DNA from: Actinomycetes bacterium
GTDB taxonomy: Bacteria > Actinomycetota > Acidimicrobiia > Acidimicrobiales > RAAP-2
Assembly (NCBI GenBank): GCA_021806045.1
Contig: JAJZDI010000023.1
Coordinates: forward strand, 1-43,708
DNA length: 43,708 nucleotides
Direction: 5' to 3'
Positions 2,272 through 25,340 of the stretch are shown in pieces (positions within the stretch are counted from its first letter, which is position 1; each line of letters starts with the position of its first letter). The notes below the pieces were generated by a model that saw nothing but the letters and a program-made list of their open reading frames with translations, was not told the DNA's origin and ran no database searches. Position numbers and translations under genes: made by a program.

Positions 2272-2985
2272 GTGAGTGATCCGGCAGCCGGCGCTGCCCG
2301 GCCGCAATGGCCGTCGCTCCAGATCGCCGGGAGCCTCACCGAGGAGTACGGGGCCGGGGTGGAACCCCATACGCCCCTCCCGTCCGAGCGCATCCTGGCT
2401 GAGCGGTTCGGCGTCCAGCGCCCGACGGTGCGCGTCGCGCTCGAGTACCTGGCCCAGCAGGGCCTCATCTACCGCCGTGAACGGCAGGGGTGGTTCGTGA
2501 GCCCGCCCCGGCTGGAGTACGACCCGCTCGGTCCCCGCGTGCCCCGGGAACGGCTGCACATCGAGTTGGTCACCACCGATCCGGCCGGCCAGCCCGCACC
2601 GCCCCAGCCCGGCCTCCGCTTCGCAGCGCTGCGCAAGTACTACTTCGACGGGCGCCTGGTCGTCGCCGCCCACACCTACCTGCGCGCCGACATGCGCGAG
2701 GCGCTGACTGACGCCGAGCTCACAGCCCCCCTCCGGGACTCGTTCGCCATGGCGAGCCAGCGGTGCGGTGTCGAGCTCACCCACAACCGGATCTCGGTCA
2801 CGGCGGCGGTGATCGGTCCCGAGCTGGCGCCCGTCCTCGAGGTCACCGCCCGCCAGCCGGTCCTCGACGTGACCCGGCTCCACTACAGCCACGACGACCT
2901 CGTCGGCGCCGACCTGGAGCACTGGCGTTCCGACGTGGTCACCCTCACCTTCGAGGACAGCCGCAACCAGCGCCTCGCCGACTGA
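2272..2985 (+). CDS. GntR/HutC-family transcriptional regulator
   Basis: A 237-residue regulator. Residues about 15-80 are a GntR winged helix-turn-helix with the family signature 'LPSERILAERFGVQRPTVRVALEYLAQQGL' split over helices 2 and 3, followed by the wing. Residues about 95-235 look like the UTRA ligand-binding domain of the HutC subfamily ('RFAALRKYYFDGRLV', 'PVLDVTRLHYSHDD'), which senses a small metabolite and usually releases DNA on binding it. The GTG at 2272 is the only start in frame between the upstream stop and the HTH. A palindrome-like site lies 46 bases upstream, and close relatives of that site precede the sulfatase and transporter genes downstream, so this protein is the likely repressor of the whole cluster. 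The inducer is not known; a sulfated or carboxylated substrate or intermediate is the natural guess. Confidence 0.85.
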   Translation: MSDPAAGAARPQWPSLQIAGSLTEEYGAGVEPHTPLPSERILAERFGVQRPTVRVALEYLAQQGLIYRRERQGWFVSPPRLEYDPLGPRVPRERLHIELVTTDPAGQPAPPQPGLRFAALRKYYFDGRLVVAAHTYLRADMREALTDAELTAPLRDSFAMASQRCGVELTHNRISVTAAVIGPELAPVLEVTARQPVLDVTRLHYSHDDLVGADLEHWRSDVVTLTFEDSRNQRLAD

Positions 2986-3020
2986 GGTCCGCCGGCACCG
3001 ACTGAGGTCCGCCGGCGCCG
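2981..3020 (+). repeat. 20-bp tandem duplication at the end of the regulator gene
   Basis: ACTGAGGTCCGCCGGCACCG is followed at once by a copy with one mismatch. The first copy contains the TGA stop of the regulator gene, so the duplication does not change the protein. Confidence 0.9.
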
Positions 3021-3117
3021 GGCGCACCTCTGCCCGCCTGCACCCGCCCGGGCGCTGGACTACTCCCCACCCTGGCCGCTCGCCGCGCCGCGCCGTAGAC
3101 GGCCGTTGACGGGGCCC

Positions 3118-3147
3118 TTGTCGTGGCCGGCACCGTGGTATATACCA
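3118..3147 (+). promoter_or_regulatory. promoter with overlapping 12-bp palindromic operator, first sulfatase gene
   Basis: A -35 TTGTCG (3118-3123), a 17-base spacer and a -10 TATACC (3141-3146) form a reasonable promoter. The perfect palindrome TGGTATATACCA (3136-3147) covers the -10, so a bound regulator would block transcription. Transcription should begin near 3153, giving a leader of about 45 bases before the ATG at 3198. Size and symmetry fit a GntR/HutC dimer site. Confidence 0.7.
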
Positions 3148-3197
3148 TTGGGAGAAGCTCGATCCCTGAGCCAGCCGACCGGGCACAGAGGAGTCAC

Positions 3198-4556
3198 ATG
3201 GCATCCAGCCGGCCCAACATCGTCTTCATGCTGCTCGACAACGTCGGGTACGGGGACCCCGGCTGCTACGGCGGCGGGATCACCCGCATGGCCCCCACCC
3301 CCCGCGTCGACGGCCTGGCCGCCCAGGGGCTGCGGCTGACCAACTTCAACGTGGAGGCCGAGTGCACCCCCACCCGGGCCGCCCTGCTGACCGGGCGCAT
3401 GCCGATCCGCACCGGGTGCGACCGGGTGCGCTTCGGCGAGAAGAACGGCCTGGCCCCCTGGGAGTACACCCTGGCCCAGCTCCTGGCCGACGTCGGCTAC
3501 GACACCGCCATCTACGGCAAGTGGCACCTCGGCAACGTGCCCGAACGCCACCCGACGGCGATGGGCTTCGGCGAGTGGTACGGGATCCAGGACAGCACCG
3601 ACCCCGTCTTCGACCACTTCAACGTGGGCAAGGGCATCCGCAAGCGCTCCACCCAGATCTGGGAGGGGACGGCCGGCGAGCCCGCCGTGCCCGTCGGCGA
3701 GTACACGCCGGAGGCCCGCCGGCTCATCGACGCCGAGGTCACCGACCGGGCCTGCCGGTTCATCGCCGACCACGCCGGCGGCGACCGACCCTTCTTCCTC
3801 TACGTGCCCTTCACCATGATCCACCACCCGTCGCTGCCACACCCCGACTTCGCCGGCCGCTCGGGGAACGGCGACTTCGCCGACTCGATGATGGAGGTCG
3901 ACCACTACTCCGGTCGCATCATCGACGCGGTGGACGCCGCCGGGATCGGCGGGGACACCATCGTCGTGTGGGCGAGCGACAACGGACCGCCCTCCCATGG
4001 GACCCTCGGGCCCCAGGGGGACCCCGGACCCTTCCGGGGGTGCCTGGGCACGGCCCTGGAGGGCCAGCTCCGCGTCCCCTGCGTGATCCGGTGGCCGGGG
4101 CACATCGAGCCGGGCCGGGTGTCCGACGACATCGTCTCCGTGCTCGACTTCTACGTCACGTTCGCCAACCTGACCGGGGGGCGGGTGCCCACCGACCGGG
4201 CCATCGACTCCCTCGACATCGGGCCGCTCCTCGACGGGTCGGGACCTTCGCCCCGCGAGCACCTGATCGCCTTCGTGCGCGACACGCTCGCCGCGGTGAA
4301 GTGGCACCAGTACAAGCTGCACCTGGTCGAGTTCACCACCGAGCCCGGCCGGCGCTACAAGCTCGAGCTCGAGTTCCCCCAGCTCTACAACGTGGCCGCC
4401 GATCCGAAGGAGCAGTGGGACATCCTCGGTACCAACCTGTGGATCGCCGAGGTGGCCCAGGAGATCGCCGCCGACTTCTTCTCCACGATGGTCGAGTTCC
4501 CGAACGTGCCGGCGGGTGCCGACGCGCCGCCGGGGGTGGAGCCCGTCGCCACCTGA
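3198..4556 (+). CDS. short Cys-type sulfatase (alkaline phosphatase superfamily)
   Basis: A 452-residue type I sulfatase that hydrolyses a sulfate ester. The N-terminal metal-binding segment P-N-I-V-F-M-L-L-D-N (residues 6-15) carries the first Asp and an Asn where many sulfatases have a second Asp. The formylglycine signature C-T-P-T-R is at residues 56-60, followed by 'AALLTGR', so Cys56 is expected to be converted to formylglycine. 'YGKWHLGN' and 'VWASDNGPPSHG' supply further active-site residues. There is no signal peptide, so it should act in the cytoplasm on imported substrate. The ATG at 3198 follows AGAGGAG; an earlier GTG in frame lies upstream of the predicted transcription start. 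It is shorter than the two sulfatases downstream and lacks their C-terminal domain. Its own promoter carries a perfect palindromic operator. Confidence 0.92.
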   Translation: MASSRPNIVFMLLDNVGYGDPGCYGGGITRMAPTPRVDGLAAQGLRLTNFNVEAECTPTRAALLTGRMPIRTGCDRVRFGEKNGLAPWEYTLAQLLADVGYDTAIYGKWHLGNVPERHPTAMGFGEWYGIQDSTDPVFDHFNVGKGIRKRSTQIWEGTAGEPAVPVGEYTPEARRLIDAEVTDRACRFIADHAGGDRPFFLYVPFTMIHHPSLPHPDFAGRSGNGDFADSMMEVDHYSGRIIDAVDAAGIGGDTIVVWASDNGPPSHGTLGPQGDPGPFRGCLGTALEGQLRVPCVIRWPGHIEPGRVSDDIVSVLDFYVTFANLTGGRVPTDRAIDSLDIGPLLDGSGPSPREHLIAFVRDTLAAVKWHQYKLHLVEFTTEPGRRYKLELEFPQLYNVAADPKEQWDILGTNLWIAEVAQEIAADFFSTMVEFPNVPAGADAPPGVEPVAT

Positions 4557-4698
4557 AGGCTTCGGGTCGGCGCGAGCAGGCCGGCCCGTGCGGCACCGCC
4601 CGTGCGGAACGGCCGATCGAGGGTCCCGGCCACCGCCCGGCCACCGCCCGGTTCCGTCCGTGCGGACCTGGACCTTGACGTGGACGGCCTGGGGATGG

Positions 4699-4747
4699 TG
4701 GACAAGATCGTGCCGCTGGGGTATACCAAGACCGCTGGCATATGCCA
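4699..4747 (+). promoter_or_regulatory. promoter and two operators before the tctCBA-sulfatase operon
   Basis: The 301-base gap 4557-4857 holds no credible gene. It contains a -35 TGGACA (4699-4704), a 17-base spacer and a -10 TATACC (4722-4727). The first operator, TGGGGTATACCA (4717-4728, 10 of 12 matches to the TGGTATATACCA palindrome), overlaps the -10. The second, TGGCATATGCCA (4736-4747), is a perfect palindrome, extended to 14 bases by flanking C and G, and differs from the first locus by one symmetric pair. Site centres are 19 bases apart. The leader to the ATG at 4858 would be about 125 bases. A short repeat of CCACCGCCCGG occurs near 4630. Confidence 0.7.
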
Positions 4748-4857
4748 GAAGGAGCATTCGGGGGGACGGCCGTGGGAGATGGCCAGGACCAGGGAGAACT
4801 GGTGCCTGGGCAGCTCGGGCGAGCGGATCGGGTAGCCACCGAGGGAGGGAGATCAGG

Positions 4858-5901
4858 ATGGTTGGCAGGACCCGGAGGTTCTCGGCACGCTCACTTCTGG
4901 CCGGTGCCGCCCTGGCCATGGTCCCGGTGATCGCCGCTGCGTGCAGCAGCTCGTCGACGGGGTCGACAGCGTCGACGGGGTCGTCGGGAAGCTCGGCCGG
5001 TTCGTCGAGCTACCCGGTGGGCGCGGTCACCCTCGTCTCGCCCGTCACGGCCGGGTCGAACGGTGACCTGATCGCCCGGGCGCTGGCCAAGGACATCACG
5101 CTCCCGCCGGCCACCGTCAGCGTGGTGGACCTCTCCGGCGGCGCGGGCATCACCGGCATGACGCACGTCGTCCAGTCCGCACCCGACGGGTCGACCATCG
5201 GGCTCATGCCCAACGGCGTCGCCATGCTCCAGCCCCAGCTCAAGCAGCTCCCCTACGGCGGCCCCTCCACCTACACCCCGATCGCCCAGGTGACCGAGGA
5301 GTTCGACGCACTGCTGGTGAGCTCCAGCGCCCAGTGGAAGACGTTCGCCCAGTTCATCTCCTACGCCAAGGCCAATCCGGGCAAGGTCACCGTCGAGGTC
5401 GCACCCGAGGGCTCCGTCCCCAACATCGACATCCGCCTCCTCGAGAAGGACGCCGGGGTGAAGTTCACGCTGGTCCCGGGGATCGGGGCGGCCAGCGCGG
5501 TGACCGACGTGGTCGGCGGCCACGTCGACGCGGTGGTGGGCACCATCAACAGCGCCCAGTCCTACATCACCGCCGGCAAGATGGCCGCCCTGGCCGTCAT
5601 GGCGCCGTCACGCCTGTCGCAGTACCCGTCGGTGCCGACCATGAAGGAGTCCGGCTACGACGTCGAGGTGGCGGTGTCGAACTTCGTCATGGGCCCGCCG
5701 CACCTGCCGGCGGCCATCGTCTCGCAGCTGGCGTCCGCCATCCACACCGCCGTCGACTCCTCCGGCTTCCAGCAGTTCGCCACCGGTTCCGGCGTGACCG
5801 TGTCGTTCGTGTCCGGCCCGGCCCTCGCCAGCCTGCTCAGCTCCCAGTACGCCAGCCTGGGCACCTACATCAAGCAGTTCTACGCCTCGAGCGCCTCGTG
5901 A
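4858..5901 (+). CDS. tctC: tripartite tricarboxylate transporter substrate-binding lipoprotein (TctC/Bug family)
   Basis: A 347-residue extracytoplasmic solute-binding protein. Residues 1-28 form a lipoprotein signal peptide (Arg-rich start, hydrophobic core, A-A-A before Cys29), followed by a Ser/Thr/Gly-rich tether. The rest is Bug-type: 'VTLVSPVTAGSNGDLIARAL', the 'SGGAGITGMTHVVQSAPDGSTIGL' segment, and the C-terminal 'VPTMKESGYDVEV' motif typical of the family. Such proteins bind carboxylates or aromatic and other organic anions and hand them to the TctBA membrane parts. The ATG at 4858 follows a strong GAGGGAGGGAGA. The stop codon overlaps the GTG of tctB. The operon is preceded by two palindromic operators, and ends in a sulfatase gene, so the transported compound is probably a sulfated organic anion; that is inference. 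Confidence 0.92.
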   Translation: MVGRTRRFSARSLLAGAALAMVPVIAAACSSSSTGSTASTGSSGSSAGSSSYPVGAVTLVSPVTAGSNGDLIARALAKDITLPPATVSVVDLSGGAGITGMTHVVQSAPDGSTIGLMPNGVAMLQPQLKQLPYGGPSTYTPIAQVTEEFDALLVSSSAQWKTFAQFISYAKANPGKVTVEVAPEGSVPNIDIRLLEKDAGVKFTLVPGIGAASAVTDVVGGHVDAVVGTINSAQSYITAGKMAALAVMAPSRLSQYPSVPTMKESGYDVEVAVSNFVMGPPHLPAAIVSQLASAIHTAVDSSGFQQFATGSGVTVSFVSGPALASLLSSQYASLGTYIKQFYASSAS

Positions 5902-6584
5902 CCGGATCCCGCCGCTCCACCCCGGGCGCGGCGGGGAACGCACCAGTGCCGGACGCACCGGCCGGCGTCCCGCCGGCTGAGCGTGCCGGCGAGGAGGTGG
6001 CGGCCGGGGCCACGCTCCCCGGCGAGCACGCCGCTCCTGGCGAGCACGGGGCCGGGGCCACGCCCGGTGCCGTGAGCCGCGGCCCCCTGCCCGGTGCCCG
6101 CCGGTGGGTGGTCGCGCACGGGTCGGCCCTGTTCGCCATCGCCGTCGCGTTGGTGGCCGTGGGCTACTTCGTCGAGGCCCTCCACTACCAGCGGGGCACC
6201 AGCGCCCAACCGGGGCCGGGCCTCTTCCCCCAGGTCGTGGCGGTGGCCATCTTCGTCGCCGCCGCTGGCACGGCCGTCACCACGTGGCGGACGCCGCCCC
6301 CGACCGACGGCGAGGCGGCCGACCACCACGCGTTCCGCCCGGTGACCGTGGTGGTGGGGGCGGTCCTCTTCGTGTCCACCATCCACCCCATCGGCTTCTT
6401 CTTCGCAGCCGGGCTCGCCCTCATCGTCGTGGAGGTGGGCATGGGGGTCCGCAACTTGTTCCGGGTGGCCCTGTACTCGCTCCTCCTCGCCTTCGTGGCC
6501 CAGCTCCTCTTCGTCGACGTGCTCAACCTCGACTTCTTCAGCAACGTCCACTTCCTCTCCCTCCCCTGTCCTCCAGCGTCATGA
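5898..6584 (+). CDS. tctB: tripartite tricarboxylate transporter small membrane subunit TctB
   Basis: A 228-residue membrane protein. Residues about 70-225 form the usual TctB body with four hydrophobic segments: 'SALFAIAVALVAVGYFV', 'GPGLFPQVVAVAIFVAAAG', 'VTVVVGAVLFVSTI' and 'ALYSLLLAFVAQLLFVDVL'. The G-P-G-L-F-P motif after the first segment is typical. TctB helps TctA move the substrate using an ion gradient. The GTG at 5898 overlaps the tctC stop (GTGA). This start gives an unusual 65-residue Pro/Ala/Gly-rich cytoplasmic extension with a repeated G-E-H-A/G motif, so a later GTG (for example at 5946) is possible. A 38-codon reading frame starting in an ATGA overlap at 6581 leads to the tctA start. 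Confidence 0.88.
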   Translation: MTGSRRSTPGAAGNAPVPDAPAGVPPAERAGEEVAAGATLPGEHAAPGEHGAGATPGAVSRGPLPGARRWVVAHGSALFAIAVALVAVGYFVEALHYQRGTSAQPGPGLFPQVVAVAIFVAAAGTAVTTWRTPPPTDGEAADHHAFRPVTVVVGAVLFVSTIHPIGFFFAAGLALIVVEVGMGVRNLFRVALYSLLLAFVAQLLFVDVLNLDFFSNVHFLSLPCPPAS

Positions 6585-6693
6585 GCGGTCGGCCCGTGCA
6601 CCGCTTCCCTCGGCATCCGAACGCACGCCACCGGCCCGGCGGTCGGAGCGGTCGGCCTGCCGTCGCCGGCACCACCGTGGAAGGGGGTGGGCG

Positions 6694-8217
6694 GTGAGCC
6701 TGGCCACCGGACTCCAACAGGGCTTCGACGTGGCCTTCACCTGGCGGAACGTGGGCGCCTCGGCGGCCGGCGTCACCATCGGGACGACGTTCGGGATCTT
6801 CCCGGGATTCGGCCCCACCACCCTGATCGCCATCCTCCTCGGGTTCACCGTGGGGCTGCCGCCCGACACCGGCATCATCATGCTGGTCGGCATCTACTTC
6901 GGCACCCAGTACGGCGACTCGATCTCCGCCATCCTCATGCGGGCGCCGAGCGAGCCCAACGCGGTCATGCTCGCCCTCGACGGGCACGAGATCGCCCGCC
7001 GGGGCCGGCCGGGGCCCGCGCTGGCCGTCGCCGCCATGGGGTCGTTCGTGGGCTCGCTGGTGGGTCTGGTCGGGCTGGGTCTGGCCGCACCCAGCCTGGG
7101 GCACGTCGCCACCTACCTGTCCTCCGCCGACTACACGTCCATCGCCGTCTTCGGCATCGTCGCCCTGTCGGTGGTGAGCCCGGGGGCCCGCTGGCGGAAC
7201 CTGACCGCCATGCTGCTCGGCGTGACGCTGTCGACGGTGGGACTCGACCCGGTGGCCGGGATCGACCGCTTCACCTTCGGCAACCTGCAGCTGGCCCAGG
7301 GCATCCCCATCGCCCCGGTGGCCATCGGCGTGTTCGGCTTCGCCGAGGTGCTGTCCATCGCGGCCGGCTCGGCGGCACGCGAGCGGGTGCGCTCCATCCG
7401 GTTCCGCGACATCTGGCCCAACCGTGCCGAGGTGAAGGAAGCGCTGCCGGCATCGGCCCGGGGGGCGGCCATCGGGTTCCCCCTCGGGGTCCCGCCGGGA
7501 CCGACCCTTGCGGTGGCCACCTACGCGTCCCACGCGCTGGAGCGGGCCAAGAGCCGCCGCAGGTACGGGGACGACCGTCCCGCCATCGCCGCCGTGGCGG
7601 GGCCGAAGGCGGCGGACGAGGCGGCCGTGGCCGGCCACCTGGTGACCATGGTCGCCCTCGGCCTGGCCTTCTCGCCGGTGACGGCCATGCTCCTGTCGGG
7701 GCTGGAGCTCCACGGGATCCAGCCGGGCCCGCTCTTCATCGCCCAGCACGCCTCCCTCTTCTGGGGGATCGTCATCAGCATCCTCATCGGCAGCGTCATC
7801 CTGCTCGTCATCAACGTCCCCCTCATCGGGGTGTGGGTCCAGCTGCTGCGCACGCCCACCCCCGAGCTGCTGGCCGGCCTCACCGTGTTCATGCTCACCG
7901 GCGCGTACGCCATCCGGAACTCGACGTTCGACATGTGGATCGTGGTGGTCATGGGCGCCATCGGCTACGTCATGCGCCGCTACCGGTTCCCCGCCGCCCT
8001 GCTCGTCATCGGCCTGGTGCTGGGCTCGGTCCTCGAGGTCAACCTGCGGGAGGCGCTGGCCACGTCGCGGGGTGACGTCGGCACCTTCGTCCAGCACCCG
8101 GTGAGCGCCACCCTGCTGGCGCTGTCGGTGGTGTTGGTGGCCACCGCGCCGCTGTGGAACCTGGCCGGCCGGTGGCGGGCGACCCGCGGGTCGGTGGGGA
8201 AGGGGGACGGAGCGTGA
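6694..8217 (+). CDS. tctA: tripartite tricarboxylate transporter large permease TctA
   Basis: A 507-residue multi-pass membrane protein, the transport pore of the tripartite tricarboxylate system. The family signature is clear near the N-terminus: 'GTTFGIFPGFGPTTLIAILL' followed by 'GIYFGTQYGDSISAILMRAPSEP', and a mirrored 'GFPLGVPPGPTLA' half-motif near residue 265, reflecting the internal duplication of the family. About 10-12 hydrophobic segments can be counted. The GTG at 6694 follows GGAAGGGGG. The gene is 109 bases after tctB, a larger gap than usual, with a small open frame bridging it. Its stop overlaps the start of the next sulfatase gene (GTGA), which ties transport and sulfate ester cleavage into one operon. 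Confidence 0.93.
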   Translation: MSLATGLQQGFDVAFTWRNVGASAAGVTIGTTFGIFPGFGPTTLIAILLGFTVGLPPDTGIIMLVGIYFGTQYGDSISAILMRAPSEPNAVMLALDGHEIARRGRPGPALAVAAMGSFVGSLVGLVGLGLAAPSLGHVATYLSSADYTSIAVFGIVALSVVSPGARWRNLTAMLLGVTLSTVGLDPVAGIDRFTFGNLQLAQGIPIAPVAIGVFGFAEVLSIAAGSAARERVRSIRFRDIWPNRAEVKEALPASARGAAIGFPLGVPPGPTLAVATYASHALERAKSRRRYGDDRPAIAAVAGPKAADEAAVAGHLVTMVALGLAFSPVTAMLLSGLELHGIQPGPLFIAQHASLFWGIVISILIGSVILLVINVPLIGVWVQLLRTPTPELLAGLTVFMLTGAYAIRNSTFDMWIVVVMGAIGYVMRRYRFPAALLVIGLVLGSVLEVNLREALATSRGDVGTFVQHPVSATLLALSVVLVATAPLWNLAGRWRATRGSVGKGDGA

Positions 8218-10562
8218 CCGGGCAGGTGCCGGCACCACGCGAGACCGGTCAGGTGCCGGCACCACCGCCGGGTGGGCCGGGCCACGACCGTGGTCCCGAC
8301 CCGGAGTTCGCCGGGCGGATCGCCACCACCATCAGGGACTCGGAGCCGTGGTGGCCGGCGCCCGCCCGCCCGCCGGCCGGCGCCCCCAACATCGTCGTCA
8401 TCCTCCTCGACGACCTCGGCTTCTCCGACCTCGGCTGCTTCGGGGCCGAGCTCCACACCCCGACCATCGACCGCCTGGCCGCCGGGGGCCTCCGCTTCAC
8501 CGGCTACACCACCGTCCCCATGTGCACGCCGGCCCGGGCCGCCTTGCTGACCGGGAAGAACCCGCACTCGGTGGGGGCCGGGTGGCTGACGGCCAACCTG
8601 CCCGGCTACCCGGGCTACCAGGCCGGCGAGATCTCCCACGACGTGCCCACCCTCGCCGAGATCCTGCAGGGCGCCGGCTACGGGACCATCGCGGTGGGCA
8701 AGTGGCACAACACCCCCACCCACCTGGTCTCCCACACGGCCAGCCGGGCGTCGTGGCCCACCCACCGGGGCTTCGACCGCTTCTACGGCGCGCTGGCCGC
8801 CGAGTTCAGCTACTTCGAGCCCGAGCACCTGGTCGAGGGGGACGAGTTCGTCGACATCGACGACTACCCGGAGGGCTTCTACTCGACCGAGGTGTGGACG
8901 GACCGGGCCATCAGCTACCTGAAGCAGCACCTGGCCGCCGACCCCGACCGGCCCTTCTTCCTCTACCTGGCCGAGAACGCACCCCACCAGCCCCTGCACG
9001 TCCGACCGGAGGACCGGGCCGCCGCCCGCGGCCGCTACGACGAGGGGTGGGACGCGGCCCGCCAGGCCCGCTTCGACCGGCAGCTCGAGCTGGGCATCGT
9101 CGACGACCGGCACCGGCTCCCACCCCACACGCCGGCCGTCCCCGACTGGGCGTCGATGACGGCCGACCAGAGGCGGCTGTGCGCCCGCTACATGGAGCTC
9201 TACGCCGGCGTGGTCGAGGCGGTCGACCGCAACGTGGGCCGCCTCGTCGATTTCCTCGAGTCGGTGGGGAAGCTCGACGACACCCTCATCCTCATCACCT
9301 CGGACAACGGGGCCAACGGGGTGGGCGGCCCCTACGGCAATCCCAACCGGACGGCCATGCGCTACGGGTTCGTGCTGGCCGACGACGACCCCCGGCTGCT
9401 GGCCATGGTGGACGAGGACCGCCTCGGCGGGCCGGAGTCGGCGCCCGCCTACCCGGTCGGCTGGACGGAGGTCAGCAACACGCCCTTCCGGCTCTTCAAG
9501 CGGTTCCCCATGAACGGCGGCATCCGGGTGCCGATGGTGGCCCACTGGCCGGCCGGGATCGCCACACCGGGCCAGATCCGCCACGAGTGGGTCCACGTCA
9601 CCGACGTGACGCCCACCCTGGTCGAGGTGGCCGGCATCCCCTACCCGGAGGCCTTCGGGGGGCAGGCGACACGCCCGGTGGACGGGACCAGCTTCGCCCC
9701 CGCACTGATCGGGACGGCCGCAGGCGACCGGCCCCACCCCCGCCAGCACTACGAGCTCCAGGGCAACCGGGCCATGATCGACGGCACCTGGAAGATCGTC
9801 TCCCTCCAGCCACCCGACGCCGGCATCGACCTCGACAACTGGATGCTCTTCGACCTGGCCGCCGACCCGTGCGAGACGGAGGACCTGGCCGGCCGGGAGC
9901 CCGAGGTCCTGGCCCGGCTGGCGGCCGCCTTCGACGAGGACGCCCGGGCCAACTGGGTCTACCCCCTGGACAACCGGGGTCCCCGGCGCATCGTGGCCGT
10001 GCCGCCGCCGCACGAGGACCTGGTGTCGCGGCCCCGCACCTTCTACCCGGGGACGCCGACCGTCCCCCAGGCGGTGGTGGCGGGGCTGGTGGCCGACCGG
10101 GACTACCTGATCCGGGCCCGCTTCACCCACGCGGCGGGGGACGAGGGCGTCATCTTCGCCCTGGGCGAGTCGCTGGCCGGCTTCGCCCTCTACGTGCTGG
10201 GCGGCCAGTTGCGCTTCGCCGTGGCCCGCTGGCCCGACCAGGCGTCGGTGGTGACGACCGGGCTGCCCGGCGGCGAGTTCGTCGTCGACGTGGACCACCG
10301 GGCCCTCGGCGGGCTGCGGGGCCGGGCCGTCCTGTCGGTGAACGGGGAGCGGTGGTGCGAGGTCGACATGTCCCCGACGATGGCCCGGGTGGGCATCGGC
10401 TTGGACGTCGGGTGCGACCGGGGCCACCAGGTGAGCCCCGAGTACCGGGGCTCGGGCTCCTTCCCCTACGGGGGGACCGTGACCAGCGTCGAGGTCGTCC
10501 CCGGCCCCCAGGCACCGGGGACCATCGTCAACCTGTCCGAGATCGTCTCCCAGCGGTCATGA
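8214..10562 (+). CDS. large cytoplasmic Cys-type arylsulfatase
   Basis: A 782-residue sulfatase of the long actinobacterial/mycobacterial arylsulfatase type. Metal-binding 'NIVVILLDDLGFSDLG' is at residues 59-74 and the signature C-T-P-A-R at 104-108, with Cys104 the predicted formylglycine. 'VGKWHNTP' and 'ITSDNGANG' are further active-site segments. Residues about 580-780 form an additional beta-rich C-terminal domain ('EGVIFALGESLAGFALYVLGG') found in this subgroup. No signal peptide is present; the first 45 residues are a Pro-rich tail with a duplicated T-G-Q-V-P-A-P (27-base direct repeat at 8217-8266). The GTG at 8214 overlaps the tctA stop, which fixes it as the last gene of the transporter operon. 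The substrate is not readable; use of imported sulfate esters is inferred from the operon. Confidence 0.93.
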   Translation: MTGQVPAPRETGQVPAPPPGGPGHDRGPDPEFAGRIATTIRDSEPWWPAPARPPAGAPNIVVILLDDLGFSDLGCFGAELHTPTIDRLAAGGLRFTGYTTVPMCTPARAALLTGKNPHSVGAGWLTANLPGYPGYQAGEISHDVPTLAEILQGAGYGTIAVGKWHNTPTHLVSHTASRASWPTHRGFDRFYGALAAEFSYFEPEHLVEGDEFVDIDDYPEGFYSTEVWTDRAISYLKQHLAADPDRPFFLYLAENAPHQPLHVRPEDRAAARGRYDEGWDAARQARFDRQLELGIVDDRHRLPPHTPAVPDWASMTADQRRLCARYMELYAGVVEAVDRNVGRLVDFLESVGKLDDTLILITSDNGANGVGGPYGNPNRTAMRYGFVLADDDPRLLAMVDEDRLGGPESAPAYPVGWTEVSNTPFRLFKRFPMNGGIRVPMVAHWPAGIATPGQIRHEWVHVTDVTPTLVEVAGIPYPEAFGGQATRPVDGTSFAPALIGTAAGDRPHPRQHYELQGNRAMIDGTWKIVSLQPPDAGIDLDNWMLFDLAADPCETEDLAGREPEVLARLAAAFDEDARANWVYPLDNRGPRRIVAVPPPHEDLVSRPRTFYPGTPTVPQAVVAGLVADRDYLIRARFTHAAGDEGVIFALGESLAGFALYVLGGQLRFAVARWPDQASVVTTGLPGGEFVVDVDHRALGGLRGRAVLSVNGERWCEVDMSPTMARVGIGLDVGCDRGHQVSPEYRGSGSFPYGGTVTSVEVVPGPQAPGTIVNLSEIVSQRS

Positions 10563-10607
10563 CGGCCACCCTGCCTTCTGACCCTGGTGCCCCTCCCGGC
10601 CGGCTCC

Positions 10608-10662
10608 TTGACCGGGACGGCCCTGCCGTCTATACCAAGGGGGCGCCGTCTGGAATAGACCA
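10608..10662 (+). promoter_or_regulatory. promoter and two operators before the third sulfatase operon
   Basis: A -35 TTGACC (10608-10613), a 17-base spacer and a -10 TATACC (10631-10636) form the best promoter of the cluster. CCGTCTATACCA (10626-10637) overlaps the -10 and keeps the conserved right half of the operator. TGGAATAGACCA (10651-10662) follows, with outer bases extending it to TCTGG...CCAGA. The predicted leader to the ATG at 10810 is about 165 bases and contains two sets of 18-bp repeats. Confidence 0.68.
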
Positions 10663-10701
10663 GAGGCCGAGGGGGGACCGGCGCCCGGTGGCTCCCTGCC
10701 G

Positions 10702-10813
10702 GCATGCCCGGTGCACCCGGCATGCACGGTGCACCCGGCGTGCCCGGTCCCCGGAGCGATTGGACGCGGTGGTGCGAAAGGACGCAGTGGCACGAATGGA
10801 TGCGGTGGCATGA
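10702..10813 (+). repeat. two neighbouring sets of 18-bp tandem repeats in a leader
   Basis: The first set (10702 to about 10748) has two full units of GCATGCCCGGTGCACCCG and a partial third. The second (10763-10813) has units starting GACGC(G/A)GTGG at 10763, 10781 and 10799, the last running into the ATG of the sulfatase gene. Both sets have the same 18-base period although the sequences differ. They lie between the promoter and the start codon. Confidence 0.85.
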
Positions 10814-13149: not shown

Positions 13150-13230
13150 GGTGGGCGGTGAGGCGGCAGGCCCGGCACCGGCACCAGGAGTGAGGCGGAC
13201 CCAGATCGAGGAGCGGACGGAGGAGGAGCG

Positions 13231-14556
13231 ATGACGGGCGACAGCACACACGACACCGCAGGGGACAGCGACACCGCCGGCACGGGTGACGCCGCCGGCG
13301 CGGGTGACGCCCTGGACCGCATCGACCGGACGGACGACGCCCTGGCCGGCTCCAACGCCCTGGTCGACCTGGGACCGGGCATCTTCGGCCAGCAGCAGGC
13401 CGGCTGGCTGGTCACCATCGAGACGGCGCTGGGACTGGTCCAGATCGACACCGGCGACCAGGCGGAGGCGTCCCTGGCTGCCATCCGCAGCCGCACCGAC
13501 GCGCCGTTCACCGACATCGTCTTCAGCCACGGCCACCAGCGCTACAACCTGGCCTGCCGGGAGTGGGTCATCGACGCCGTCCGCACCTCGGGGCGCGTCC
13601 CCCGGGTCATCGGCCACGCCAACGTGGCCCGCCGCCAGCGCCGCTACCTGGAGAGCAACGGCCTCCAGAACCGGCTCATCGAGCGGCAGTTCCGCTACCC
13701 CAGGGGATCGCTCGACGGGAGGGTGTTCGCCTTCACCGAGCCCACCCACACCTTCACCGACCGGTTCGTCATCGACACGCCCGGTCGCACCGTCGAGGTG
13801 CTGGCCGCCCCGTCGGAGACCGACGACGCCATCGCCGCCTGGATCCCCGAGGACCGCGTCCTCTACGGCGGCCCCGCCTGCATCCCGTTCCTCCCGAACG
13901 TGGGCAGCCCGCAACGGCCGCTCCGTGACCCGGTGCGGTGGGCCGACACCCTCGACCGCCTGGCCACCCTGCCCGCTGCCATCCTCATCCGCGAGTTCGG
14001 CGACCCCCTCGAGGGCGCCGAGCTGATCGGCGACTACCTGGCCACCACGGCGGCCGCCCTGCGGTGGTGCCACCGCTCGGTGGTGGAACTGATGAACGAG
14101 GGCCACAACGTGGCCGAGATCGTGAACATGGTCACCCCCGACCCGGCCGTGTTCGACCGGCCGTGGCTCATCGAGGGGTACACGTCGATCGAGCACATCC
14201 TGCGCGACGTCTACCGCAGCCAGTTCGGCTGGTGGGAGGACCTCAACCCCACCTCGCTGCACCCGGCCCACCCCCGCGACGTGGCTCGGGAGATCCGGGG
14301 GGTGATCACCGACCCCGACGCCGTGCTGGCCCGCACCCGGGCCCTGCGCGACGAGGGGCGGATCACCCTCGCCCTCCACGTGGTCGACCTGCTGGCACTG
14401 GACGAGGGGACGGACCCGGTGACGGTCGAGGCCCGCACCCTCAAGGCCGAGCTGTGCCGGCTGGCCGCCCTGGCCAACCCGTCGTACGTGACCCAGAGCC
14501 TCTACCTGAACGGGGCCGACGAGCTGGAGCGGGCCAACGGGGGCGGCCAGCCGTGA
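13231..14556 (+). CDS. metallo-beta-lactamase-fold alkylsulfatase-like protein with lost metal ligands
   Basis: A 441-residue protein of the alkylsulfatase-like MBL group: MBL domain (about 40-260) followed by a helical dimerisation-type domain (about 265-400) with 'YRSQFGWWEDLNPTSLHP'. It aligns along its length with the MBL gene at 34449-35756. Where that protein has the canonical H-G-H-L-D-H, this one has H-G-H-Q-R-Y (residues 100-105). The first two His and the Glu of S-E-T-D-D (Glu196) remain, but the Asp and last His of the motif, the His after E-T-D-D, the Asp of S-G-D (now Y-G-G) and the His of P-A-H-G (now R-E-F-G) are all gone. It may bind one metal, or none, and have a binding rather than hydrolytic role. 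The N-terminal 30 residues are an acidic Gly/Asp/Ala repeat tail. The ATG follows GGAGGAGGAG and lies 81 bases after the sulfatase; its stop overlaps the next gene. Confidence 0.82.
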   Translation: MTGDSTHDTAGDSDTAGTGDAAGAGDALDRIDRTDDALAGSNALVDLGPGIFGQQQAGWLVTIETALGLVQIDTGDQAEASLAAIRSRTDAPFTDIVFSHGHQRYNLACREWVIDAVRTSGRVPRVIGHANVARRQRRYLESNGLQNRLIERQFRYPRGSLDGRVFAFTEPTHTFTDRFVIDTPGRTVEVLAAPSETDDAIAAWIPEDRVLYGGPACIPFLPNVGSPQRPLRDPVRWADTLDRLATLPAAILIREFGDPLEGAELIGDYLATTAAALRWCHRSVVELMNEGHNVAEIVNMVTPDPAVFDRPWLIEGYTSIEHILRDVYRSQFGWWEDLNPTSLHPAHPRDVAREIRGVITDPDAVLARTRALRDEGRITLALHVVDLLALDEGTDPVTVEARTLKAELCRLAALANPSYVTQSLYLNGADELERANGGGQP

Positions 14557-16862
14557 GCGGGCGCCGGGTGGCCTTCCGCACCTGCCCGCTGTGCGAGGCC
14601 ACGTGCGGGCTGCAGATCGAGCTCGACGGCGACGCCGTCACCCGCATCCGTGGGGACCGCGACGACGTCTTCTCCCGCGGCTACCTGTGCCCCAAGGGCT
14701 CGTCGCTGAAGGGGCTCCACGAGGACCCCGACCGGGTGCGCACCCCGCTCGTCCGGGCGGGGGGCCGCTTCGAGCCCACCACGTGGGACGCCGCCTTCGC
14801 ACTGCTGCATGAACGGCTGTACCCGATCGTGGCCGACCACGGACCGGACGCCGTCGGCTTCTACAGCGGCAACCCGTGGTCGCACAACTACGAGGCCATC
14901 CTCTACACGTCGTTCCTGGAGGGCGCCCTCGGGCACAACCGGTTCGCGGCGGCCAGCGTCGACCAGCGCCCCCGTGAGATCGTCTCCGGGATCCACTTCG
15001 GCGCCCGCACGTCGTTCCCCGTGCCCGACCTCGACCGCACCCACCTGCTGGTGCTGGTGGGGAGCGACCCGCTCGAGTCCAACGGCAGCCTGGCCACCGC
15101 GCCCGACTGGCCCGGGCGGCTGGCCGCCATCCGCGACCGGGGCGGCCGGGTGGTGGTGGTCGACCCCCGGAGGACGGCGACGGCCGAGGCGGCCGGCGAG
15201 CACCTGGCCATCGTGCCCGGCACCGACGCCGCCTTCCTGGCCGGCCTGGCCCACGTGCTCCTCACCGACCACCGGTGCGACCCCGGCCACGCCGGCGCCT
15301 ACCTCGACGGTCTCGACGCGGTGCGCGACGCCCTCGCCGACCTCACCCCCGAGGCGGTGGCACCGTGGTGCGGGATCCCCGCCGGCCAGATCCGCGCGCT
15401 GGCCGCCGACCTGGCCGCCGCGCCCGCCGCCGCCGTCCACGGGCGCCTGGGCACCTGCCTGTCCGACCTGGCCACCCTGACCGTGTGGCTCCTCGACGTG
15501 GTCAACGTGGCCAGCGGCAACCTGGACCGGCCCGGGGGGGTGATGTTCGCCAAGGGCGCCGCCTTCGGCCTCAACACGGCCGGGCGCCCCGGCACCGGCT
15601 CCGGCACCGACTACGCCACCTTCGCCAGCCGGGTGCGCGGCCTGCCCGGCGCCTTCGGGCAGCTGCCGGCGTCGTGCATGGTCGAGGAGATGGAGACGCC
15701 CGGGGACGGGCAGATCCGCGGCCTCGTCACCCTGGCCGGCAACCCGGTCCTCACCACCCCCGACAGCGACCGGTTGGTGCGGGCCCTCGAGATGCTCGAC
15801 TTCATGGTCTCCATCGACCTGTACGTGAACGAGACCACCCGGCACGCCGACCTCATCCTTCCGGCCCCCTCCCACCTCGAGCACGGCCACTACGACGTCT
15901 CCTACTACCAGTTCTCGCTGCGCAACATCGCCAACTACTCACCGGCGGTGCTGCCCGTGCCCGAGGGGATGGTCCCCGAGTGGCGCCTCCTGCTCGCCCT
16001 CACCGGCATCGTCCAGGGCCGCGGGCCGATCGTCGACGTGGACGCCATGGACGACGGCTTCGCCAGCCTCATGGTCCAGATCGCGGTGGGCGACGAGTTC
16101 GGTCCCGTCCACGGCCGCGACCCGGACGAGCTGCTGGCCGAGCTGGCGCCCCGCACGGGACCGGAGCGCCTGCTCGACCTGGCCCTGCGCACCGGCCCCT
16201 ACGGCGACGGCTTCGGTGCCCGCCCCGGTGGCCTGTCGCTGGCCGTGCTCGAGGACCACCCCCACGGGATCGACCTGGGGGCGCTCGAGCCCCGCATCCC
16301 CGAGATGCTGCGCACCCCGAGCGGCCGCATCGACCTGGCCACCCCGGCCATCCTGGCCGACCTGGCGCGCCTGCGGCGGGCCATGGCCGAGCCCCGCCCT
16401 CCCTACGTGCTCGTCGGCCGGCGGGACCTGCGCTCCAACAACTCCTGGCAGCACAACGTCCGCACCCTGTCCAAGGGGAAGGAGCGCTGCACCCTCCTCG
16501 TCCACCCGGACGACGCCGCCGCCCTGGGGCTGACCGACGGCGGTCGGGCCCGGGTGGCCACCGACCGGGGGTCGGTGGAGGCGCCGGTAGTGGTCACCGA
16601 TGCCATGCTGCCCGGGGTGGTGAGCCTCCCCCACGGGTGGGGGCATGACCTGGCGGGGGTGCAGCTCTCGGTGGCCAGCCAGCGCCCCGGGGTGAACGCC
16701 AACCGCCTGGCGTCCACCGAACGGGTCGACCCCCTGTCGGGCAACCCCCACCTGAACGGCTTCCCGGTGACCATCACGCCGGCCGGGGACGTGCCGACCG
16801 GTGGTGCCGATGCCGCCGGTGCAGAACCTGCGGGAGTGGAGGTGACCAGCCATGCCCGATGA
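14553..16862 (+). CDS. cytoplasmic molybdopterin oxidoreductase
   Basis: A 769-residue member of the DMSO reductase/formate dehydrogenase superfamily. An N-terminal [4Fe-4S] site is formed by C11-P-L-C14-E-A-T-C18 and C46 ('YLCPKG'). The Mo-bis-MGD domains follow, with 'GFYSGNPWSHNYE', 'LVGSDPLESNGSL', 'GRLGTCLSDLATLTVW' and 'VTLAGNPVLTTPDS'. The C-terminal molybdopterin-binding domain shows 'RSNNSWQHN' and 'SLPHGWGHD'. No Tat signal is present, so it is cytoplasmic. The electron partner is not encoded next to it. The GTG at 14553 overlaps the MBL-like stop (GTGA), and the stop overlaps the next gene by 11 bases, indicating translational coupling. In this operon it may oxidise the desulfated product or a sulfur compound; the reaction is unknown. 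Confidence 0.88.
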   Translation: MSGRRVAFRTCPLCEATCGLQIELDGDAVTRIRGDRDDVFSRGYLCPKGSSLKGLHEDPDRVRTPLVRAGGRFEPTTWDAAFALLHERLYPIVADHGPDAVGFYSGNPWSHNYEAILYTSFLEGALGHNRFAAASVDQRPREIVSGIHFGARTSFPVPDLDRTHLLVLVGSDPLESNGSLATAPDWPGRLAAIRDRGGRVVVVDPRRTATAEAAGEHLAIVPGTDAAFLAGLAHVLLTDHRCDPGHAGAYLDGLDAVRDALADLTPEAVAPWCGIPAGQIRALAADLAAAPAAAVHGRLGTCLSDLATLTVWLLDVVNVASGNLDRPGGVMFAKGAAFGLNTAGRPGTGSGTDYATFASRVRGLPGAFGQLPASCMVEEMETPGDGQIRGLVTLAGNPVLTTPDSDRLVRALEMLDFMVSIDLYVNETTRHADLILPAPSHLEHGHYDVSYYQFSLRNIANYSPAVLPVPEGMVPEWRLLLALTGIVQGRGPIVDVDAMDDGFASLMVQIAVGDEFGPVHGRDPDELLAELAPRTGPERLLDLALRTGPYGDGFGARPGGLSLAVLEDHPHGIDLGALEPRIPEMLRTPSGRIDLATPAILADLARLRRAMAEPRPPYVLVGRRDLRSNNSWQHNVRTLSKGKERCTLLVHPDDAAALGLTDGGRARVATDRGSVEAPVVVTDAMLPGVVSLPHGWGHDLAGVQLSVASQRPGVNANRLASTERVDPLSGNPHLNGFPVTITPAGDVPTGGADAAGAEPAGVEVTSHAR

Positions 16863-18093
16863 CGCCGCACCCGGCGCGGTGCCTGATGACGCCGCACCCG
16901 GCGCGGTGCCCGATGACGCCGCACCCGGGGCCGAACCAGCGGGGAGCTGGCCCCAGCACGACCGGGAGGGCTCCTGGCTGGTCGACGAGCGGGGCGGGCG
17001 GATGCTGGCCTGGCACGTGGCCGGCGGGGTGTTCAACCTCGGGTTCTCCGACCAGCGGATGGCGCGGGCCGTCGCCGACATCGTCCTCGACCACGACACC
17101 GGCCTGTGGTCGGATCCGTCCGAGCGCCGCCTGGCCGGGGAGCGGGCGTTCGTCGAGCTGTTCCCCGATCCGCTGGACCACGCCTTCTTCACCCCCAGCG
17201 CGTCGGAGGCGTTCGAGGTGGCGTGCAAGCTGGCCAAGCTGGCCACCCGCCGCCCGGGGCTGGTGTCGGTCACCGGCGGCTACTACGGCGCGGTGGGCTT
17301 CGCCCTGGCCATGGACAACCCGGTCCTCCAGCCGGAGGTCTTCACCCCCATGGCGGGGATGATCCCGAAGGCGGCGTTCGGATCGGTCGAGGCCATGGAC
17401 GCCCTGGTCGACGGGACGACCGCCGCGGTGTGCATCGAGACCATCCAGGTGCCGGCCGGCGTCTACGAGCAGCCGGACGGGTACCTGGCCGAGGTGCGTC
17501 GCATCTGTGACGAGCGGGGCGCCGTCCTCATCGTCGACGAGGTCCAGGGCGGCCTGCTGCGGTCGGGCGAACTGTGGGCCTTCGAGCGCCACGGGATGGT
17601 GCCGGACATCGTCGTCACCGGCAAGGGGCTGTCGGGGGGCTACTACCCCCTCGGGGCCCTCACCTACACCGGCGCGCTGCACGACCACGTCGACTCCTTC
17701 CCGCCCGTGCACCGGTCCAGCTTCAGCGGCGGCGAGATCGGGGCGCGCATCGCCGGCGAGACGGCCCGGCGTTACCTCGATCCGGCGCTGCGCTCGCACG
17801 TCGACGTGGTCGGTGCCCGGCTGGGTGCGGGCCTGGCCCGCATCAGCGCCGACCACCCGGGTGCGATCGCCGCCATCAGGGGCCGGGGGCTCGTCTACGG
17901 GGTGGAGCTGGCCACCGCGTTCGCCCACCAGATGGCCGAGGCGTGCGAGGCGCGGGGGCTCTACCTGCACGCCACCCTGGAGCCGCGGACGGTCCAGGTC
18001 ATGCCGGCCCTGGTCACCACGGCGGACGAGATCGACTGGGGCCTCGAGCGGTTCGAGGAGGCGCTCGTCTCCCTCGGGGCTGGCGGGACCTGA
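16852..18093 (+). CDS. class III pyridoxal-phosphate aminotransferase
   Basis: A 413-residue fold-type I, class III aminotransferase. 'DEVQGGLLRSGELWAFERHG' and 'VVTGKGLSGGYYPLGA' hold the PLP-binding Asp and the Schiff-base lysine, Lys258. The segment 'NLGFSDQRMARAV' and the 'TPSASEAFEVACKLAK' phosphate-binding region are also typical. The family moves amino groups between omega-amino compounds (for example taurine, beta-alanine, 4-aminobutyrate) and 2-oxo acids; the exact substrate cannot be read. The N-terminal 25 residues are three copies of a nine-residue unit (Asp-Asp-Ala-Ala-Pro-Gly-Ala-Val-Pro) made by 27-bp DNA repeats. The ATG at 16852 overlaps the oxidoreductase stop and the end overlaps the next ATG (TGATG). 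A role in processing an amino-bearing sulfated compound is possible. Confidence 0.9.
   Translation: MPDDAAPGAVPDDAAPGAVPDDAAPGAEPAGSWPQHDREGSWLVDERGGRMLAWHVAGGVFNLGFSDQRMARAVADIVLDHDTGLWSDPSERRLAGERAFVELFPDPLDHAFFTPSASEAFEVACKLAKLATRRPGLVSVTGGYYGAVGFALAMDNPVLQPEVFTPMAGMIPKAAFGSVEAMDALVDGTTAAVCIETIQVPAGVYEQPDGYLAEVRRICDERGAVLIVDEVQGGLLRSGELWAFERHGMVPDIVVTGKGLSGGYYPLGALTYTGALHDHVDSFPPVHRSSFSGGEIGARIAGETARRYLDPALRSHVDVVGARLGAGLARISADHPGAIAAIRGRGLVYGVELATAFAHQMAEACEARGLYLHATLEPRTVQVMPALVTTADEIDWGLERFEEALVSLGAGGT
16858..16932 (+). repeat. 27-bp in-frame tandem repeat, aminotransferase N-terminus
   Basis: Units begin at 16858, 16885 and 16912 with GATGACGCCGCACCCGG. Two are complete and nearly identical and the third is partial. 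They encode a nine-residue acidic/Ala/Pro unit not present in the catalytic fold. Confidence 0.93.
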
Positions 18094-19436
18094 TGGCACC
18101 CGCCCGACCGGCGGCGACCGGGCGGGCCGGGTCACGGCCACGGGCCGGTGGCCAGGAGATGCTGGTGGGGATGGCCGACGCCGCATCGGAGAGGGACGGG
18201 TCACCCGCGGACGGTCGGGGCCGGACACGCGGTCTGGCCGGCGCCGGGCTGATCGCCGGCGCCGCCGACGTCGACCCGACCACCATCGGCGTGCTGGTGG
18301 CCGTGGCCGTGGCCAGCGGGACCCGGATGGCGTGGGCGTGCCTGCTCGTCTTCCCCGTGCTCGGGGTGACGCAGGTCATCGCCACCCGAGTGGGTGCCGC
18401 CACCGGCACCGACCTGCAGACGGCGGCGGTGCGCCGCCACGGGCGGGCGTGGGCCGGGCTGCTGCTGGTGTCCGTGGTGGCGGTCAACGTCTTCACCATC
18501 GCCGCCGACGTGGACGCCGGCGCGTCCGCCCTCGGCAGCCTGCTGTCCGTCGACTCCCGGTGGCTGGTGGTCCTCCTGGCCCTCCTGCTCGGTGGGGTGC
18601 TGGTGGCCAGCTCGTTCCGGGCGCTCCACACCATCCTGGTGGGGCTGCTGGCCGCCCTGGCTGCGGCCGTCGCCGTGCTGGCCGCTCTCCACCCCCACTG
18701 GGCCACCGTGGCCCACGACTCGCTCGTCCCCGGGTTCGCACCGGGCGGCGGCGCGCTCGTCGCGCTGACCGCCCTGTTCGGCACGGCGGTCACCAGCTAC
18801 GTGTACGTGTGGCAGACGATGGACGCCTCCCGGGAGGGCGCCGGTCCCCGCCAGCTGCGGCGGTCACAGGCGAGGGCGATCGGGGGGGCGGCGGTCACCG
18901 CCGTCCTCATGTGGGCCTTCGTGGTGGCGGCCGGCCCCCTGCACGGCCGGGTGTCCGCCGCAGCGACCGGCTCGGCCGGCGGGGCGGCCCGTGCCTTCGA
19001 CCGGGTGGTCGGGTCCGCCGCCGGTGACGTGTTCAGCGCCGGCCTGGTCGTCTCGAGCATCCTCGCCCTGCTGGTGCTGGCGTCGACCACGGCGACCGTC
19101 CTCGGCGCCGAGCTGCCGTGGGGCGGGGGTTCGCTCCGCCGCATCGGGACGGCGCCCCGGGTGGCCGCCGCCCTCGGGTTGGCCGCCGTGCTCGGCGCGC
19201 TGCTGGTCGCCCTCGACGTCGGCGCGGTGCCGGCCCTGGTGGACGCCAGCATCGCCGGCGCCCTCGGTGCGCCCGTCAGCCTCGCCTTCCTCGTCCGGTT
19301 GGCCCGCGACCCGGCGGTGATGGGCGGACACGTCGTCCCCCGCTGGCTGGCGGCCGCCGGCGGGGCGGTGGTGGTCCTGGCCGTCGGGCTGGCCGTCGCC
19401 TACCTGGCCCACGGGGGCGGGGGCCTGGGCGGGTGA
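18093..19436 (+). CDS. divergent Nramp-like divalent metal transporter
   Basis: A 447-residue membrane protein with about 11 hydrophobic segments. After a 45-residue polar tail comes 'GAGLIAGAADVDPTTIGVLVAVA': this resembles the TM1 metal-binding segment of Nramp transporters, but the D-P-G-N motif is D-P-T-T (residues 61-64). The TM6 region 'LFGTAVTSYVYVWQTMDASREG' lacks the M-P-H motif. It therefore belongs to a divergent branch whose ion may not be Mn or Fe; a general APC-fold transporter is an alternative. The ATG overlaps the aminotransferase stop (TGATG), placing it at the end of the five-gene run. Supply of a metal (sulfatases use Ca or Mg) or export of a product are both possible. Confidence 0.7.
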   Translation: MAPARPAATGRAGSRPRAGGQEMLVGMADAASERDGSPADGRGRTRGLAGAGLIAGAADVDPTTIGVLVAVAVASGTRMAWACLLVFPVLGVTQVIATRVGAATGTDLQTAAVRRHGRAWAGLLLVSVVAVNVFTIAADVDAGASALGSLLSVDSRWLVVLLALLLGGVLVASSFRALHTILVGLLAALAAAVAVLAALHPHWATVAHDSLVPGFAPGGGALVALTALFGTAVTSYVYVWQTMDASREGAGPRQLRRSQARAIGGAAVTAVLMWAFVVAAGPLHGRVSAAATGSAGGAARAFDRVVGSAAGDVFSAGLVVSSILALLVLASTTATVLGAELPWGGGSLRRIGTAPRVAAALGLAAVLGALLVALDVGAVPALVDASIAGALGAPVSLAFLVRLARDPAVMGGHVVPRWLAAAGGAVVVLAVGLAVAYLAHGGGGLGG

Positions 19437-19489
19437 CGGGCGCCGGGGTCCGGGCGGCACCGGGGCCCGGGGTCCGGGGGCCGGCTCCG

Positions 19490-19505
19490 GCCCACTACGG
19501 TGGGC
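19490..19505 (+). promoter_or_regulatory. perfect inverted repeat before the acyl-CoA synthetase gene
   Basis: GCCCAC-TACG-GTGGGC forms a six-base stem with a four-base loop in the 132-base gap between the Nramp-like and acyl-CoA synthetase genes. There is no T tract, so it may be an operator or a weak hairpin end of the upstream operon. A TACGGT hexamer inside it could be a -10, but no matching -35 was seen. Confidence 0.35.
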
Positions 19506-19568
19506 ACCGGTCACGGATGCCGGGGCGGGCGGTGGGGACCGGGACCGTCGAGCGATCGAGGGGGATGC

Positions 19569-21290: not shown

Positions 21291-21291
21291 G

Positions 21292-25331: not shown

Positions 25332-25340
25332 GGGACCTCC

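Follow-up and report, generated by a model that had tools for sequence, protein, structure and literature searches.

The 43,708 nt of the forward strand analysed here (positions 1–43708 of contig JAJZDI010000023.1, assembly GCA_021806045.1; hereafter the window) belong to an Acidimicrobiales draft genome of 3.1 Mb in 43 contigs, with a completeness of 97.46%. The window contains a locus that reaches from a GntR-family regulator gene to the gene of an Nramp-family membrane protein and that we regard, with a probability of about 0.5, as a substrate-inducible regulon for the uptake and catabolism of an organosulfate. The locus further encodes three formylglycine (FGly) sulfatases, a tripartite tricarboxylate transporter (TTT), an alkylsulfatase-type metallo-β-lactamase-like (MBL) protein named MBL1, a molybdenum (Mo) oxidoreductase and a class III aminotransferase. 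The distribution of operator-like sites supports the view that these genes form one regulon, which the GntR protein would bind and repress. In the best reading of its history, the locus would be partly assembled in this genome, with an older MBL1–Mo–sulfatase core and later additions. The G+C content of the window is 69–76% in 2-kb steps. The features of the locus, whose named genes all lie on the forward (+) strand, are the following:

2214–2225, +, operator-like site TGGTATAGACAA, 58 nt ahead of the GntR start codon
2272–2985, +, GntR-family regulator with a UTRA domain, HutC type (PF00392, E=7e-14; PF07702, E=8e-11)
3136–3147, perfect palindrome TGGTATATACCA, 62 nt ahead of sulfatase 1, fitting the HutC consensus GTMTAKAC (PMC4494728)
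3198–4556, +, sulfatase 1, FGly motif CTPTRAALLTGR (PF00884, E=3e-42)
4717–4728 and 4736–4747, two operator-like sites before tctC (one and two mismatches, respectively)
4858–5901, +, TctC solute-binding protein (PF03401, E=9e-42, search run from 4732; lipobox by eye)
5898–6584, +, TctB (PF07331, E=3e-16)
6694–8217, +, TctA permease (PF01970, E=5e-119), the sole TctA match in the source genome
8214–10562, +, sulfatase 2, long form, FGly motif CTPARAALLTGK (PF00884, E=9e-60)
10626–10637 (− strand, two mismatches) and 10651–10662 (one mismatch), two operator-like sites before sulfatase 3
10810–13149, +, sulfatase 3, long kind, FGly motif CSPTRAALLTGR (PF00884, E=9e-69)
13231–14556, +, MBL1, alkylsulfatase-type MBL protein (PF14863, E=7e-24, residues 294–433; PF00753 unmatched)
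14553–16862, +, Mo oxidoreductase of the dimethyl sulfoxide (DMSO) reductase superfamily (PF00384, PF01568, PF04879)
16852–18093, +, class III aminotransferase (PF00202, E=6e-57; TGKG motif of the pyridoxal phosphate-binding lysine)
18093–19436, +, Nramp-family membrane protein (PF01566, E=6e-35)

The first-pass annotation of this DNA had named the sulfatases, the transporter, the MBL-like protein, the Mo enzyme, the aminotransferase and the Nramp-type protein, and all of them were found on the + strand. The gene overlaps that it had claimed are likewise all seen in the sequence. Stop and start codons overlap in GTGA between tctC and tctB (5898–5901), between tctA and the sulfatase 2 gene (8214–8217) and between the MBL1 and Mo genes (14553–14556). 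The Mo and aminotransferase genes overlap by 11 bases (16852–16862), and the junction of the aminotransferase and Nramp genes reads TGATG (18091–18095). RNA families and tRNAs were searched for, and none were found.

Distribution of operator-like sites

The regulator carries both the HTH_GntR and the UTRA domain, which is the HutC-type architecture shared with the regulators of the PhnF, NagR and DasR regulons. The sequence was scanned with the pattern TGGTATAnACCA, a palindrome expected for a HutC-type regulator. With up to three mismatches and palindromes counted on both strands, the window contains 55 matches against a mean of 20.39 after shuffling, and none of 100 shuffles reached 55. At one mismatch or fewer the entire 3.1 Mb genome contains five places, four of them in the locus, where they precede the GntR gene, sulfatase 1, tctC and sulfatase 3, each at the start of a gene or operon. 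If the perfect site is taken as the seed, the probability that chance alone puts three of the four remaining places into this 17 kb is about 7e-7. The control pattern, TGGTATAnACCA read backwards, gave one genome match per strand. The possibility that the genes are chance neighbours is ruled out by this distribution.

The published HutC consensus core is GTMTAKAC (PMC4494728), and it is present exactly in three of the six sites, those at 2214, 3136 (the perfect one) and 10626. The effectors of described HutC-type regulators are small molecules, for example histidine, fatty acids, sugars and alkylphosphonates (PMC4494728). The present locus differs from those regulons in that its targets, namely sulfatases, a TTT system and a Mo enzyme, are unmatched by the effectors named in the available part of that paper. 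The first-pass annotation had put the locus under one regulator. The GntR gene and the operator-like sites before four units agree with this, but the gene lies at 2272–2985, ahead of the segment 3198–19436 that had been described as the system.

An acyl-CoA ligase gene (19569–21290) begins 132 bases after the Nramp gene with no operator-like site in the gap, and it was not counted into the locus. Its best NCBIfam model is the steroid-24-oyl-CoA synthetase CasG (452.9 against a cut-off of 750 bits). In the genome OFTM10, two HutC-type palindromes (L171:8566 and 9302) flank an MgtC-like gene beside an aminotransferase gene (names by eye); this pair is apparently part of another regulon.

Recurrence of the MBL1–Mo–sulfatase core

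Genomes of the order were searched with four of the proteins, namely MBL1, the Mo enzyme, sulfatase 2 and the aminotransferase, and only the best candidates per genome were scored. The Mo enzyme was also searched for in named genomes, with the best 80 of 568 relatives kept. Relatives of the Mo enzyme with at least 67% identity were found in G005, in OFTM10 (locus L065) and in DTUCFX13 (locus L096), each with an MBL1 relative of 68–76% identity directly upstream. A sulfatase gene directly adjoins the MBL1–Mo pair in all three. It is sulfatase 3-like and points back towards the Mo gene in G005 (65%) and in L096 (43%), and in L065 it is a more distant sulfatase (27%) located just upstream of MBL1. 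The GTGA overlap of the MBL1–Mo pair is also present in L096. Among the best 80 Mo loci, only L065 and L096 have MBL1 beside the Mo gene. L065 is from the Acidimicrobiales and L096 from the Dehalococcoidia, which belong to another phylum, at the same identity. That L096 is as similar as L065 suggests horizontal transfer.

The idea that the full gene set is conserved was rejected after searches with the four proteins across the order and with the Mo enzyme in the named genomes. A search of open full-text papers in PubMed Central (PMC) found none combining TTT, sulfatase and molybdopterin, nor one combining TTT, sulfatase, aminotransferase and GntR; the looser combination of TTT, arylsulfatase and gene cluster occurs in one paper. 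In the genus g38 of the order (G150, G201 and G263; loci L173, L174 and L175), a Mo relative of 46–47% and a sulfatase relative of 43% lie 2–4 kb apart in another gene setting, and CoA-transferase-like and amidohydrolase-like genes (by eye) belong to the same neighbourhood.

The MBL1 clade

MBL1 had been described as MBL-like. The family assignment stands by the PF14863 match, but PF00753 is unmatched and the HxHxDH motif reads HGHQRYN. PF14863 is the sole Pfam match, and the protein stops at residue 441, right after this dimerisation domain. The closest solved relatives are alkylsulfatases, and MBL1 aligns with Pisa1 over residues 60–433 (E=2e-19). MBL1 thus resembles the type III alkylsulfatases (SdsA1, Pisa1, SdsAP and YjcS), including their dimerisation domain, but it has no SCP-2-like C-terminal domain and its binuclear zinc ligand set (HxHxDH, two Glu and His) is incomplete; His100, His102 and Glu196 are retained.

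The search of 298 order genomes with MBL1 gave some match in 207. Above a wide gap in the scores (E 6e-74 vs 2.6e-50) stand MBL1 and 16 places in 13 genomes. These 17 sequences together with those of L065 and L096 form the 19 rows of the clade alignment, which was compared with 18 canonical relatives taken from the fetched loci only; the canonical locus L036 (393/400 residues as in L029) had been dropped from these as a near-copy. All 19 rows lack the Asp and the second His of HxHxDH, and the stretch ends in xYN. In all of them Phe or Tyr takes the place of the last zinc-site His, immediately preceded by Glu in most rows, and the bridging acidic residue has become Pro, Ala or Asn. His100, His102, Tyr105, Asn106 and Glu196 are invariant in 19/19 rows, as they were in all 14 rows of a smaller alignment. 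The 18 canonical rows keep all ligands, and no intermediate was seen among the 37 rows. In a maximum-likelihood tree the 19 members lie on one side of a branch with a support of 98/99; four of the end branches are long.

In the structure of SdsAP, Asp196, His197, Glu322 and His367 are all the ligands of one zinc, one of them being common to both zincs (PMC5426288). MBL1 lacks the residues equivalent to these four, and the equivalents of His192, His194 and Glu303 remain. As judged from the alignments, the MBL1 clade retains none of the four ligands of one zinc site but keeps the His-His-Glu of the other, a finding new to this analysis. Among 396 genomes of the phylum, nine match MBL1 at E<=1e-90, and three of these matches, MBL1 itself plus two from the order, are clade members. 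Members outside the order were sought in this set, and the six further matches, all from outside the order, proved to be canonical HxHxDH proteins. A search for MBL1 in viral contigs found nothing. The AlphaFold model of MBL1, with a mean pLDDT of 55.1 and a pTM of 0.44, is too weak to place ligands; Foldseek with this low-confidence model ranks alkylsulfatases first, which is a weak check.

The loss of four ligands in every clade member, together with the overlap of the MBL1 and Mo genes, could mean that MBL1 has become a pseudoenzyme without activity that serves the Mo enzyme structurally. We consider this doubtful. Five residues, including the remaining His-His-Glu, are kept in 19/19 rows and 11 of the 13 clade-A loci have no Mo gene in their fetched flanks, which argues for a working site of MBL1's own. 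ETHE1, a persulfide dioxygenase, is a mono-iron MBL protein with a mononuclear facial-triad site (PMC4383860), and the remaining ligands of MBL1 could form a similar site. It is a tentative proposal, held with rather low confidence, that MBL1 represents a new catalytic type of the MBL family: a mononuclear His-His-Glu enzyme of alkylsulfatase ancestry with a new invariant Tyr-Asn pair, which arose once. It might be a mono-zinc hydrolase or an ETHE1-like mono-iron oxygenase and might work with the Asp-ligated Mo enzyme (see below) on substrates that have lost their sulfate or still carry it.

A canonical MBL paralogue of MBL1 (HGHLDH) with a PF00753-type lactamase domain is encoded in the same window at 34449–35756 (−), near a second GntR/UTRA regulator at 33552–34340 (+). 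Locus L047 (G292) contains two MBL1-clade genes separated by a TetR-like gene (by eye), and a 45% Mo relative adjoins them at the contig end.

Sulfatases and transporter

All three sulfatases have the PF00884 domain with an intact C-x-P-x-R FGly motif, and the GKWH and DNG motifs are kept as well. They share these features with the class I (formylglycine) sulfatases, such as 1hdh and arylsulfatase A, but differ from them in having no signal peptide by eye. This had been noted in the first-pass annotation, and by this judgement the three sulfatases look cytosolic. Their place next to a TTT system agrees with the first-pass view that they would act on imported material. A further difference is LLDN in sulfatase 1, vs LLDD in sulfatases 2 and 3. 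The nearest solved relatives of sulfatase 1 are 7aj0 (E=7e-67) and arylsulfatase A, and sulfatase 3 is closest to the arylsulfatase 1hdh (E=1e-84). For sulfatase 2, no listed relative above 44% identity was found in the 295 other genomes of the order. The genome contains eight PF00884 places, three of which are the sulfatase genes in a 10-kb part of this locus, and one PF03781 gene, on contig 36. PF03781 is the family of the activating enzyme FGE and also includes EgtB-like proteins.

The presence of three sulfatases of two types suggests broad ester use, and the locus could serve sulfur scavenging, with sulfate being freed from assorted esters and the other enzymes being incidental. This explanation is improbable. 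The locus has a HutC-type regulator, and those of this type that have been described bind small effectors (PMC4494728); no sulfate assimilation gene is found among the annotated regulon genes, and the part of the locus that recurs elsewhere is the Mo enzyme with MBL1. Catabolism of phosphate or phosphonate esters by promiscuous enzymes of the alkaline phosphatase superfamily under a PhnF/PhnR-like regulator appears very unlikely. The best NCBIfam match of the regulator is indeed PhnR, and the sulfatases also match the model of PehA, a phosphoric/sulfuric ester hydrolase, but the scores remain far under the cut-offs (101.5 vs 296.75 bits for PhnR; 39.2, 74.8 and 94.6 vs 900 for PehA). Furthermore, sulfatase 3 is far nearer to 1hdh than to the phosphonate monoester hydrolase 2w8s (E=2.8e-17).

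The favoured organosulfate regulon includes a complete transporter. As in other tripartite tricarboxylate transporters (TctABC), all three subunits are encoded, in the order C-B-A; the difference is that the operon runs on into a sulfatase gene. Among proteins of solved structure, those nearest to TctC are solute-binding proteins of TTT systems, including one that binds terephthalate. On this basis the substrate is guessed, in the first instance, to be a sulfated carboxylate.

Mo oxidoreductase, aminotransferase and Nramp-type protein

The Mo enzyme has 769 residues and comprises Fe4S4, molybdopterin and dinucleotide-binding domains, the same three domain types as other members of the DMSO reductase superfamily such as formate dehydrogenases and thiosulfate/polysulfide reductase. 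It differs from formate dehydrogenase and thiosulfate reductase in having Asp for Cys/Sec, no partner subunit in the operon and scores below the cut-offs of their models (195.4 of 666.25 and 185.8 of 694 bits); all 25 NCBIfam models shown for it are under cut-off. Aligned with formate dehydrogenase H and with HDCR FdhF, the enzyme has Asp137 at the position of the Sec/Cys ligand, and in the alignment to thiosulfate reductase the Cys of the latter is two columns off. Asp occupies the ligand position in 96 of 96 rows of the Mo family, some of which repeat a genome. From these alignments and rows, an Asp ligand to Mo is likely, though not established. The family is large, with 107 of 296 order genomes having a member at E<=1e-120, the source genome included, and the 80 named Mo loci that were kept include many from Burkholderiales and from actinobacteria. 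A second Mo oxidoreductase is encoded in the window at 22308–26888 (−). The thiosulfate and DMSO/selenate reductase models are nearest to it, below cut-off, and a fused FeS-NrfD protein adjoins.

The aminotransferase scores under the cut-offs of all 25 NCBIfam models shown for it. It is the one indication that the substrate may bear an amino or oxo group. The classical metal-binding motifs of Nramp proteins are DPGN and MPH. Neither string is present in the Nramp-type protein, which has DPTT at residue 61. Because DPTT replaces DPGN and MPH is missing, it is not to be taken as a metal importer.

Weighing of the readings

Several results count against a single organosulfate regulon with an older core. 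Three of the six operator-like sites deviate from the HutC core by one or more bases, and neither a sigma-70-type promoter nor an intrinsic terminator was found in 2000–21500. No operator-like site with one mismatch or fewer was found in L065, in L096 or in the first 20 kb of the G005 contig (nor in L038), and in OFTM10 the pattern occurs no more often than the reversed control (7 and 6 vs 8 and 7). The Mo gene is present in L065 and L096 by selection, because these loci were fetched with the Mo query. The MBL1-led search speaks for the reading, with a sulfatase or a Mo gene in the fetched flanks (<=1.5 kb) of 4 of 13 clade-A loci, two each, vs none of 16 canonical loci; however, the one-sided Fisher P of 0.03 is optimistic, because the 13 clade-A loci are related, and the Mo gene is in the flanks of just 2 of the 13. 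No relative of the aminotransferase was detected at E<=1e-75 in the 295 other order genomes. Finally, G005, OFTM10 and DTUCFX13 (two of which lack a completeness figure) contain no TctA match at E<=1e-3.

It was suggested in the first-pass annotation that the full set is a single pathway, to be looked for in other genomes, with occurrence of the genes in relatives without co-localisation speaking against it. This suggestion was not supported for the set as a whole. MBL1, Mo and an adjoining sulfatase recur together in G005, L065 and L096, but TctA was not found in those genomes, nor were close relatives of sulfatase 2 or the aminotransferase found in the order, and the recurrence without a TctA match is in part such an occurrence. 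The same observations would fit two modules under one regulator, an older MBL1–Mo–sulfatase module and a TTT–sulfatase and aminotransferase module for another, co-occurring substrate. The core is the sole part recovered elsewhere. Two modules are a possible explanation, though not a probable one, since operator-like sites precede all blocks and the aminotransferase gene overlaps the Mo gene.

Proposed pathway and its significance

For the single organosulfate regulon we propose the following sequence of events. A HutC-type repressor would bind the TGGTATAnACCA palindromes ahead of its own gene, sulfatase 1, tctCBA–sulfatase 2 and sulfatase 3–MBL1–Mo–aminotransferase–Nramp, and binding of a ligand would make it release the DNA. 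The first step of the pathway would be the import, by the TTT system, of a small organic anion bearing one or more sulfate esters. In the second step the three formylglycine sulfatases would take the sulfate off the imported compound and related ones. The carbon skeleton so freed would then be hydrolysed and oxidised (or reduced) by MBL1 and the Mo enzyme, the order of these reactions being our assumption. The aminotransferase, presumably added in this genome, would handle a product that bears an amine or a carbonyl.

Elsewhere in the window, an exporter of the TauE/SafE family, the sulfite exporter family, is encoded at 32186–33070, with no operator-like match before it within three mismatches. 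The ectoine genes at 28203–31774, whose products EctA, EctB and ectoine hydroxylase score above the NCBIfam cut-offs, hint at a saline habitat.

The MBL1 clade may be regarded as a natural experiment on the MBL fold, in which one metal site was given up and the other was kept with new conserved neighbours. If the proposed reading is right, the locus would be a defined regulon with a testable operator, sulfatases and a transporter, and would offer a route to identify an environmental organosulfate.

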